Positions 54,324 to 57,321 of a stretch of DNA of 64,000 nt are shown here, piece by piece (position 1 is the stretch's first letter; every line of letters begins with the position of its first letter). This DNA comes from an uncultured Clostridia bacterium (lineage in GTDB: Bacteria > Bacillota > Clostridia > Christensenellales > UBA1242), in assembly GCA_947629745.1 (NCBI GenBank), contig CANREZ010000002.1, positions 64,210 to 128,209 of the forward strand, in the 5' to 3' direction. The notes below the pieces were generated by a model. That model saw nothing but the letters and a program-made list of their open reading frames with translations. It searched no databases and was not told the DNA's origin. The translations under genes and the position numbers were made by a program.

Positions 54324-54414
54324 GGAGAGATACTCAAGAGGTCCAAGAGGGCACCCTGCTAAGGTGTTAGTGCGGGCAACTGCAGCGCGAGTTCAAATCT
54401 CGCTCTCTCCGCCA
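54324..54414 (+). tRNA. tRNA-Ser(GCT), CCA encoded
   Basis: ggagagatactcaagaggtccaagagggcaccctgctaaggtg...gcgcgagttcaaatctcgctctctccgcca; long variable arm. Confidence 0.95.
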
Positions 54415-54447
54415 ATCAAAACTGATAAGGTGTTCTTATCAGTTTTT
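54415..54447 (+). terminator. tRNA-Ser terminator
   Basis: aaaactgataaggtgttcttatcagttttt. Confidence 0.85.
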
Positions 54448-54510
54448 CTTTTTTACAAGAATGTTTTGGAATTTGTTTTGAAATATGATATGATAAGAAA
54501 GGAGCACAAA

Positions 54511-54963
54511 ATGAAAAATTACGAAATCCTATCAAATGATTGCAAAATATTATGGAAAGAAAATTACAAGATCACAACTGAAAAATACACACAGGTAAGT
54601 GGATATATTTTTAATGATAAAAATCAATTATTGATTGTTAAAAATGGAGACACATGGACTATTCCTGGCGGACATCCCGAGAAAGGCGAAACTCAAATTG
54701 AAACCCTTTCTAGAGAGCTTATGGAAGAAGCGTGTGTTATCCTTCGAGACATAAAGTATTTAGGCTGTGTTGAAGTTGTTGAAAAAAATGAAGTCTATTA
54801 TCAATTACGCTATACAGCAAAAGTCAAAGAGATCTTGCCTTTTACTAAAGAATGGGAGACAAACGAACGGCTTTTTGTGGATTTAAAAGACCTATCAAAA
54901 TATATTAAATGGGCAAATGGCATCACATTTAAAGCACAGATCAACTCCGCCAAAAAGAACTGA
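54511..54963 (+). CDS. NUDIX hydrolase (cassette gene)
   Basis: WTIPGGHPEKGETQIETLSRELMEEACV; RBS aaggag; last codons overlap a ctccgcca site. Confidence 0.88.
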   Translation: MKNYEILSNDCKILWKENYKITTEKYTQVSGYIFNDKNQLLIVKNGDTWTIPGGHPEKGETQIETLSRELMEEACVILRDIKYLGCVEVVEKNEVYYQLRYTAKVKEILPFTKEWETNERLFVDLKDLSKYIKWANGITFKAQINSAKKN

Positions 54964-54984
54964 TAAGGCATCTCGTCAGTTTTT
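54945..54984 (+). repeat. Repeat of the tRNA-Ser 3' end plus terminator
   Basis: ctccgccaaaaagaactgataaggcatctcgtcagttttt vs 54407-54447 ctccgccaatcaaaactgataaggtgttcttatcagttttt. Confidence 0.75.
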
Positions 54985-55063
54985 ATTTAAAGTTTGAAAG
55001 TTCTGATGGAAACCCACTTTTTCCGCCAAGAGAAACCTAAATCGAACCCTGAAAAGTTTTGGA

Positions 55064-55591
55064 TTAGGTTTTTGTTTGATTCTTCGCTAGTTGCAGCACT
55101 TCTTGAATAAATGCGTTTTTTTGTGCTGTGTATGCTTTCCGTTCTTTCACTTGATTGGAAACATCCCTTTTCATTTCTTCGTATTTTTTGATGTATTGTG
55201 GATGTTTTATTAGAAAATCTCTAAAAATGATATGATTGTTCCAATAAACGCTATCTATCAGTTCAACATGAATATAATGGGTTCTGCACTCGGGAGTTCC
55301 TTTTCTTGCCAAAATTTCCCCCTTTGTTTCTATCGAATTTTTTACATCATAACCAGCTTCTGTAAGAATTGGAATCAATTTATATAGTGAATCCAAATTT
55401 TCTACTGCCACCGCGATGTCGATTATGGGTTTAGCAGACAGCCCCGGTATTGATGTGCTTCCCACGTGTTGTATATCAAGGGCGTAGCTCCCCAAAATGC
55501 GTTTTAAGATTGTTTTTTCTTTTTCGTATTCATCTTTCCAAGTTGGATCATATGGATGCAACTCTACCAAATCTTTATGTAAACCCAACAT
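55064..55591 (-). CDS. GrpB family protein (cassette gene)
   Basis: VELHPYDPTWKDEYEKEK...IQHVGSTSIPGLSAKPIIDIAVAV; start MLGLHKD with gaggtg RBS. Confidence 0.88.
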   Translation of the reverse strand: MLGLHKDLVELHPYDPTWKDEYEKEKTILKRILGSYALDIQHVGSTSIPGLSAKPIIDIAVAVENLDSLYKLIPILTEAGYDVKNSIETKGEILARKGTPECRTHYIHVELIDSVYWNNHIIFRDFLIKHPQYIKKYEEMKRDVSNQVKERKAYTAQKNAFIQEVLQLAKNQTKT

Positions 55592-55720
55592 ATGCACCTC
55601 TTTGTGAAAATCATAATTCTGCATGTTTCAAGTGTACTATATTCTGATTGTAAAACAAATCTGATTATAAAACAAATGAATATATGAATGTTATAAAATA
55701 AAAATTCGTTTTACATTACA

Positions 55721-55800
55721 CGCTTTTCCGCCAGATATGCCGTTTTACCAAAAAATGAAGTAGGAATGTTAGTTCCTACTTCCTTTTTTTTGTTCTTTTG
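55721..55800 (+). repeat. Cassette-boundary direct repeat, copy 1
   Basis: cgcttttccgccagat...gccgttttaccaaaaaatgaagtaggaatgttagttcctacttccttttttttgttc. Confidence 0.85.
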
Positions 55801-55837
55801 ACGTACCAAATATACTTTGGTGCGCCTTTTGTTGAAT

Positions 55838-56866
55838 TTACCCGTTCTCACTTGATTTCAAAATCTTAATAGTCTTGATTAAGGTGTCAATTTCTTTTTT
55901 TTCCGTTTTGAAATTTGTCATGAGTCTAACAATCTTTTTTGCTTTGTTAGAATAACTAAGTGTGTAATTTTTTGTAAGTGCTTTAAATAACGGATAATCG
56001 ATTTTTGCAAAAACCATATTACTTTCAACCGGATAGATAATTTCAATGCCAAGTTTTTCTAGCTCACTTTCTAAATATTTTGCCATTTTGTTAGCGTGTT
56101 GAGCGTTTTTTAGCCACAAATTATTATTGAAATAGGCTTCAAATTGCGCTGCAAAAAATCGAGTTTTTGAAAATGTTAAAGCAAGCTGTTTCTGATATTT
56201 TTCCACATCATCAAATAGCTTTGGATTGACAAAAACAGCCAATTCGCCAAACATACACCCGTTTTTGTTTCCGCCGATTGTGAAAGCGTCAATGCCCGTG
56301 TCTTGCACAAGTTCCTTAAGCGTGCATTTTAAATATGCAAGAGCGTTTGCCACTCTAGCGCCGTCAAAATAAACATACATTTTGTTTGCGTGTGCGAAGT
56401 CGCATATCTTTTTGATTTCTTTTGGTGTGTAGCAAGTTCCAAGTTCGGTGGCCTCTGAAAACACAACAATCTTGATTGGTGGATTATGTCCTAATGTGGA
56501 AATGGTCTTTTTAATTTTTTCAATGGTTATTTTGCCCATTTCATCCGATACAGTCAATATTTTTGTTCCCAAAGAATGCTCTGTCGCGCCCATTTCAGAA
56601 CGAGAAACATGCGTTGTGTCTGTGCAAAGTATTGAACAAATGTCTTTTGTCATCGTTCTTAAAGCCAAAATATTTACCGCAGTTCCGTTTGAAACAAAAG
56701 CCACTTCCACAGGCACTGTAAATTGACTTTGCACCCACTTTTTTACATTTTTTGTGTGCTCGTCCTTAAAATATCCCAGTTCGTAGCCTTTGTTTGCTGA
56801 AATCAGGGCGTTCATAATCTCATCACTAACACCAGAGGTTGTATCGCTTGAAAAATTAGCTATCAT
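55838..56866 (-). CDS. Threonine aldolase-like PLP enzyme (cassette gene)
   Basis: FSSDTTSGVSDEIM, VSNGTAVNILAL, MYVYFDGARVANAL, FTIGGNKNGCMFGELAVF. Confidence 0.9.
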   Translation of the reverse strand: MIANFSSDTTSGVSDEIMNALISANKGYELGYFKDEHTKNVKKWVQSQFTVPVEVAFVSNGTAVNILALRTMTKDICSILCTDTTHVSRSEMGATEHSLGTKILTVSDEMGKITIEKIKKTISTLGHNPPIKIVVFSEATELGTCYTPKEIKKICDFAHANKMYVYFDGARVANALAYLKCTLKELVQDTGIDAFTIGGNKNGCMFGELAVFVNPKLFDDVEKYQKQLALTFSKTRFFAAQFEAYFNNNLWLKNAQHANKMAKYLESELEKLGIEIIYPVESNMVFAKIDYPLFKALTKNYTLSYSNKAKKIVRLMTNFKTEKKEIDTLIKTIKILKSSENG

Positions 56867-56941
56867 ATATAACTCCTTAAGGAATTATAACACAAATGTT
56901 AATATATACAAAGTATTTATCAAAGTACGTCTTGACACACT

Positions 56942-57024
56942 CGCTTTCCGCCAGATTCGTGGCAACGCCGTTTTACCAAAAAAGAAGTAGGAATGTTGGT
57001 TCCTACTTCTTTTTTGTTCTCTTG
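56942..57024 (+). repeat. Cassette-boundary direct repeat, copy 2
   Basis: cgctttccgccagattcgtggcaacgccgttttaccaaaaaagaagtaggaatgttggttcctacttcttttttgttc. Confidence 0.85.
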
Positions 57025-57078
57025 TGCGTGCCACTTTTCCTGCTCCGAGAGCGAGATGCTGAATCGGTGACGCTTGGA

Positions 57079-57321
57079 TTAATCTATTTCTAGTTCTTCG
57101 CTTTCAAAAATAGGATCGTCAAAGAATTCTGCAGTGGTCATTCCAAGTCCGCGTATAATCTGCATTACCGTCCTTAGATTTACGCTCTTGTTGCGTTCTC
57201 CCATAAGTGTCTTCATAGTGTTATGGGGCATAGCAATTATTCTCTCTAATCTATATTGTGACATATTCCTTTCTCTTAAAATATTGCTAATCCTTAACGC
57301 AACAGCTGTGCTTAATTTCAT
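57079..57321 (-). CDS. XRE-family HTH regulator
   Basis: RISNILRERNMSQYRLERIIAMPHNTMKTLMGERNKSVNLRTVMQIIRGLGMTTAEFF. Confidence 0.82.
   Translation of the reverse strand: MKLSTAVALRISNILRERNMSQYRLERIIAMPHNTMKTLMGERNKSVNLRTVMQIIRGLGMTTAEFFDDPIFESEELEID

Follow-up and report, generated by a model that had tools for sequence, protein, structure and literature searches.

Tandem and composite arrays built by large serine recombinases (LSRs) at one chromosomal 3' end are familiar from the staphylococcal cassette chromosome (SCC), where the enzymes are CcrA, CcrB and CcrC, some elements lack a recombinase, and the cargo includes restriction-modification (R-M) and accessory genes. The ssrA islands of Dehalococcoides (DsiB) form tandem rows behind a small-RNA gene, at its 3' end; their left edge holds an LSR that lies on the reverse strand and reads into the gene, and many of these islands have no integration module (McMurdie et al. 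2011, PMC3146451). More generally, elements that have attachment (att) ends but no integrase and that stack at one site by accretion are known as cis-mobilizable elements (CIMEs; Guedon et al. 2017, PMC5704250). The tRNA-targeting integrative and mobilizable elements listed in that paper use tyrosine recombinases, and those with serine recombinases enter dispensable genes. In the A118 family of integrases, the motif read by the zinc domain is found 16-24 bp from the centre of attP; in attB the distance is 5 bp shorter (PMC3783163). Here I consider a row of small units behind the tRNA-Ser(GCT) gene of an uncultured Clostridia bacterium, within a 64,000-nucleotide stretch of its contig CANREZ010000002.1 (the window). 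This row is likely to be a stack of small cassettes, integrated at the attachment site of tRNA-targeting LSRs.

The window belongs to a 0.97-Mb metagenome genome, 95% complete, of which about 455 kb were scanned base by base. A sequence-only reading of the window had called attention to repeats of the tRNA acceptor end behind the gene, each with a hairpin, and they are there. On the plus strand TCCGCCA starts at 54408, within the tRNA, and then at 54946, 55022, 55727 and 56947, and each of the five copies is followed by a stable hairpin with a run of T (z from -3.3 to -6.5). TTCCGCCA proper is limited to 55021, 55726 and 56946, the first two copies being CTCCGCCA. It might be supposed that these are chance 7-mers beside ordinary terminators. 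TCCGCCA is frequent in the genome, found 65 times on the forward strand of 973 kb and at 115 places in all, including within genes of the window (at about 8285 and 58774, not 8287 and 58780 as first given). However, four copies fall on one strand in the 2.6 kb behind the tRNA, where about 0.18 are expected (Poisson, about 4e-5). Each has its hairpin, half-site motifs (described below) are in place, and left ends are common to different genera. I find chance scarcely credible.

One gene was thought to lie between each pair of copies. The three genes are confirmed (NUDIX on the plus strand, GrpB and a threonine-aldolase-like gene on the minus strand), and the GC content of the three gene stretches is 0.32, 0.34 and 0.35, compared with 0.39 for the whole window; one interval, the 76-bp unit at 54947-55022, holds no gene. 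The direct repeats of about 75 bp that were seen around the last gene also exist, but they come down to a 48-nt copy at 85% and a 12-nt exact copy. As had been said, the window contains no integrase, either of the tyrosine or of the serine type.

The locus was compared with the tRNA-Ser(GCT) loci of 77 relatives, all oriented alike (78 loci with the window). The sequence directly after the CCA of the tRNA varies freely between genomes, yet a limited set of sequences recurs: one left end, attgtgagcaatccgaaccc..., is near-identical over 80 nt in genomes from three genera. Hairpins follow internal CCGCCA in 21 of 81 cases on the forward strand; the reverse strand gives 6 of 68, and random positions 11 of 231. 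The NUDIX/GrpB/threonine-aldolase trio, whose conservation in order in all relatives would have refuted the sequence-only reading, occurs at none of the 77 loci. The sister species (G001) shares with the window an upstream ABC-transporter flank (47% identity) and has, in place of the array, an LSR element after the tRNA, seen there as a left end and the C-terminus of a recombinase gene. With content wholly different between relatives, the earlier idea of repeated, stacked insertions at the 3' end of the tRNA stands, and so does the idea that the elements bring with them their own end (CGCCA) and terminator-like hairpin.

The cargo elsewhere is diverse, in units with an LSR and in units without. 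Type II R-M systems are carried by units in G091, G004, G117 and G097, an AAA ATPase resembling Lamassu LmuB by the sister species, and a PDC-S18 candidate with a Schlafen-type partner by G202; there are also assorted single genes. The sole homologue of the window's cargo at another tRNA-Ser locus among the relatives is a GrpB, 55% identical, in the array of G091. GrpB was considered as a cassette shared elsewhere and set aside: its homologues are patchy (26 of 199 genomes of the family), and the G091 copy is alone in being within another array, without recognisable ends of its own.

What enzyme might be responsible? The sequence-only reading expected a tyrosine recombinase, but the genes at the site point to a different family. 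LSR genes are found at tRNA-Ser(GCT) in 14 of the 78 loci, the sister species included, and they read into the tRNA. The LSR of the sister species, about 523 aa in length, has Resolvase, Recombinase and zinc-ribbon domains, and its gene lies on the strand opposite to the tRNA, in a frame that passes the hairpin and goes on into the tRNA. Its profile matches in PDB are the TP901-1 and A118 integrases. LSR-bearing elements at this tRNA in the relatives are 6.5-8.5 kb long, and in two arrays (G117 and G207) a second LSR lies behind an internal site. In G207 (L104/L178) a second, differently ending LSR, at 532-2025, abuts no recognised site.

Nor are such enzymes peculiar to this tRNA. A scan of 85,488 species genomes gave 72 named LSR loci with enough flanking sequence, 54 of which have a convergent tRNA gene within 500 nt, mostly tRNA-Ser, with one sub-clade on tRNA-Leu. 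LSRs that are 95-97% identical to each other are found on tRNA-Ser with anticodons GCT, TGA and CGA. Further LSR loci in the order (L137, L145, L146, L151 and L154) are beside tmRNA, tRNA-Glu, Leu, Trp and Ala, which suggests that tRNA targeting is widespread among the LSRs of these bacteria. In the window's own genome (G000), tRNA-Ser(GGA) (C1:48734-48823) and tRNA-Ser(CGA) (C1:177981-178068), loci L056 and L062, are both followed by a common sequence, TGACACTCGCATTAAG...CGTTATTCCGTCACT; the latter gene also has a second copy of the tRNA end, AAATCCCTCCCACGCGCCA. This is another tRNA-associated element.

I propose that for an LSR dimer the T-loop of the tRNA (GTTCRANT) takes the part of the attB zinc-domain motif, and that each attP arm of the element carries a GAAC-type copy of the T-loop, 5 bp further out. 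To judge from the symmetry of the arms and the 5-bp rule relating tRNA to element, crossover would take place at about tRNA nt 71. Nucleotides 72-76 and a new terminator hairpin would then come from the element, and the tRNA would stay whole. A crossover at this position would account for why the repeat is limited to nt 71-76. A newcomer would go in between the tRNA and the previous element, and each internal junction would therefore consist of the right arm of one element and the left arm of the next. That LSRs made the insertions, where they crossed over, and in what order the units were stacked are all matters I infer from the sequences.

The evidence for the model lies in the positions of the motifs. 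A GAAC-type motif is found 16-23 bp from the crossover on both arms of the elements, and on the tRNA side the corresponding T-loop is 5 bp closer, 11-18 nt before the core. The pattern [AG]TNNGNAC, picked by eye on the same data in which it was counted, begins 11 or 12 nt past the core in 26 of 72 distinct left ends and at any other position in no more than one. Of 39 right arms, 16 have its reverse complement, beginning 16 nt ahead of the core. With a matrix trained on the LSR loci, half-sites are detected at 24 of 80 forward CCGCCA, 3 of 68 reverse, and 0-4 instances of each of seven permuted cores per strand; at least four loci are in both training and test sets. Seventeen LSR loci at tRNA genes for Leu, Glu, Met, Asn and other Ser, none of them in the training set and with a different core sequence, were also inspected: 16 have the motif at +11 or +12 past the tRNA end, one of these scoring weakly.

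The two ends of a cassette also resemble one another. The left and right motifs match at 6.3 of 8 positions, compared with 4.9 when shuffled (0 of 100000), in end pairs that were partly chosen by hand, a point to be held against the result. Arms that meet at one junction match at 4.9 positions, no better than shuffled. Each cassette thus has a specificity of its own and forms a unit. In the window, both ends of the GrpB cassette show the half-site anatomy of attP and attB, as do the right arm of the 76-bp unit and that of the threonine-aldolase unit.

An array of this sort could instead be made of genomic islets placed at the 3' end of the tRNA by tyrosine integrases, since lost. In G041 (L089) a tyrosine integrase and a 67-aa putative excisionase lie 219-1663 downstream at the same tRNA-Ser site, which is therefore a target common to two recombinase families. 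The G041 element has a longer copy of the tRNA end that includes the T-loop, longer copies are also found in G057 and G081, and G002 seems, by my reading, to retain the C-terminal remnant of an integrase at the tRNA. However, in the window each copy spans about 6 bp (nt 71-76), what a serine-integrase crossover would leave, compared with roughly 20 nt in the tyrosine-integrase elements, and this favors crossover by an LSR. The arms in the window bear the LSR motif, and the sole tyrosine recombinase of the host genome is Xer-like, adjoins lexA, and is probably the housekeeping Xer. Tyrosine-integrase islets are thus an improbable source of the array. Because of the anatomy of the ends and the LSR genes at the same site, the family responsible is very probably that of the LSRs.

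Single-gene units, accessory cargo, and a hairpin at every boundary also bring to mind an integron, in which an IntI-type enzyme acts on folded sites. The conserved hairpin was considered as a folded recombination site and rejected: its stems vary, and what stays constant is the GAAC-type motif, always equally far away, which fits a double-stranded half-site better than a fold. No IntI-like gene was found, just the Xer-like recombinase beside lexA. The boundaries do not have the architecture of a recognised attC site (no search aimed at attC was made), and the genes are of mixed orientation. An integron-like array is very hard to credit.

If LSRs are the agents, then there remains the matter of how units without one came to the site. 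In the proposed mechanism, a single-gene unit consists of two arms and cargo alone, was moved by the LSR of another element, and now resides in a genome without an LSR. Since both the small units and the genome as a whole lack the enzyme, it is plausible that they were mobilised in trans, and another element's LSR is the most probable agent. Possible alternatives to movement in trans are mobilisation in cis and the decay of larger LSR elements. Decay is the main rival: the units would be remnants of larger LSR elements from which the recombinase was deleted, in effect CIMEs, moving if at all by accretion with a neighbor, and never free single-gene cassettes. Large LSR elements are indeed present at the same site. 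The empty units, 76 bp in the window and also 54-112 bp, resemble deletion products, and the ends of the NUDIX and threonine-aldolase units are degenerate. The Dehalococcoides islands without integration modules have been interpreted in this way (PMC3146451). But LSR-less units in other genera (G185, 447 bp; G101, 801 bp; G009, 1.0 kb; G142, 0.9-1.6 kb) retain both ends intact and matching, with the one or two genes inside fitting exactly between them, and decay alone would be unlikely to be so tidy. I give decay a real chance of being right, though one appreciably below even.

Several observations weigh against a stack of LSR cassettes in the window. LSR genes belong to this type of locus, but none is in the units of the window, and none was matched in the host genome, 95% complete. 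No synteny with the sister genome was found downstream near the array. No empty site, circular form, or gain or loss within a species was seen. The NUDIX unit has a canonical motif at neither end, and the threonine-aldolase unit has none at its left end. With these two units having ends that are non-canonical or weak, part of the array is probably now immobile. The left end of the NUDIX unit is non-canonical because the loop of its hairpin (54418-54446), GGTGTTC, is inverted, the reverse complement of the GAACACC loop found in relatives. An inversion inside the palindrome would take the half-site motif off its proper strand.

The units are set out from left to right in Table 1. The NUDIX reading frame runs into the second site, with its stop at 54961-54963. 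The right arm of the 76-bp unit is canonical (p=0.0045). Both ends of the GrpB cassette are canonical and of the same type as those of the LSR-bearing region in G207; the GrpB left end is also found in G207 and G057, its right arm in G207 and G202. A small HTH_26 regulator gene (57079-57321) comes after the last hairpin repeat and is possibly the cargo of a further unit, the right end of which was not found.

Table 1. Features of the tRNA-Ser(GCT) array, with positions in the window
Feature	Position	Strand	Remarks
tRNA-Ser(GCT), target gene	54324..54414	+	ARAGORN; last 6 nt CCGCCA (54409-54414, tRNA nt 71-76) are the shared core
T-loop GTTCAAAT, minus-strand reading ATTTGAAC; proposed zinc-domain motif of tRNA half-site (B)	54391..54398	-	11-18 nt upstream of core; p=0.0002 vs window background
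Core and left end, NUDIX unit	54409..54452	+	12-bp perfect hairpin, T-run; half-site motif non-canonical
NUDIX-domain gene	54511..54963	+	Pfam PF00293, E=1.9e-13
76-bp unit, no gene	54947..55022	+	Core and hairpin; right arm motif ATCAGAAC at 55000-55007 (read on minus)
Core and left end, GrpB cassette	55023..55070	+	Motif AATCGAAC at 55040-55047 (p=0.0001), hairpin, T-run
GrpB-family gene	55064..55624	-	Pfam PF04229, E=6.4e-46
Right arm, GrpB cassette	55704..55727	+	ATTCGTTTTAC...; motif AAACGAAT (55704-55711, read on minus), p=0.0014
Core and left end, threonine-aldolase unit	55728..55795	+	Strong hairpin; half-site motif non-canonical
Beta-eliminating lyase / low-specificity threonine-aldolase-like gene	55838..56866	-	Pfam PF01212 (Beta_elim_lyase), E=5.3e-42
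Right arm, threonine-aldolase unit	56925..56947	+	Motif AGACGTAC (56925-56932, read on minus), weaker, p=0.0245
Last core and second copy of 55728-55795 hairpin repeat	56948..57020	+	Left end of further undelimited unit, or old chromosomal flank

A broader idea may be put forward, tentatively, as slightly less probable than its opposite: that the near-universal T-loop, serving as the half of attB read by the zinc domain, guides one clade of LSRs to tRNA genes, and that these enzymes drive integron-like arrays whose one-gene cassettes have just two matching half-sites and depend on mobilisation in trans. If this is true, then a sequence rule would explain how a recombinase clade can land safely at many different tRNA genes: nearly every tRNA has the T-loop, and the end to be repaired is a few bases. 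The rule would predict attP and attB for dozens of uncharacterised recombinases, a matter of relevance to genome engineering. It would also provide gut bacteria of small genome with a route to swap restriction systems and single accessory genes.

The system closest to that described here is the family of Dehalococcoides ssrA islands, and tandem LSR arrays are thus already known. Common to both are an LSR reading into a small-RNA gene, tandem stacking, and units without a recombinase. They differ in that the target there is tmRNA, with a 20-bp ssrA repeat, and here tRNA-Ser(GCT), with a repeat of about 6 bp. Here also crossover is proposed at about nt 71, with the T-loop as binding motif, and the units go down to one gene or none. 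SCC elements run to many kb and target rlmH rather than tRNA-Ser. With CIMEs the array shares the stacking of att-ended elements that lack an integrase (the GrpB cassette, two canonical ends around one gene, has the flanking att sites and no integrase or transfer gene, though this genome offers it no functional neighbor to move with), but tRNA targeting is here tied to serine recombinases. The LSRs have the same domains as the A118 and TP901-1 integrases (Rutherford et al. 2013, PMC3783163) and the same half-site spacing with its 5-bp shift in attB, but those are phage integrases with protein-coding targets, whereas the attB motif proposed here is the T-loop of a tRNA. The searchable literature, which leaves out most subscription journals, yielded no account of tRNA genes bearing LSR arrays or of a T-loop serving as an attB motif, and the T-loop rule is provisionally considered new. 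What appears to be new, then, is that LSR arrays occur on tRNA genes, that a T-loop rule seems to apply, and that units can be as small as one gene or none.
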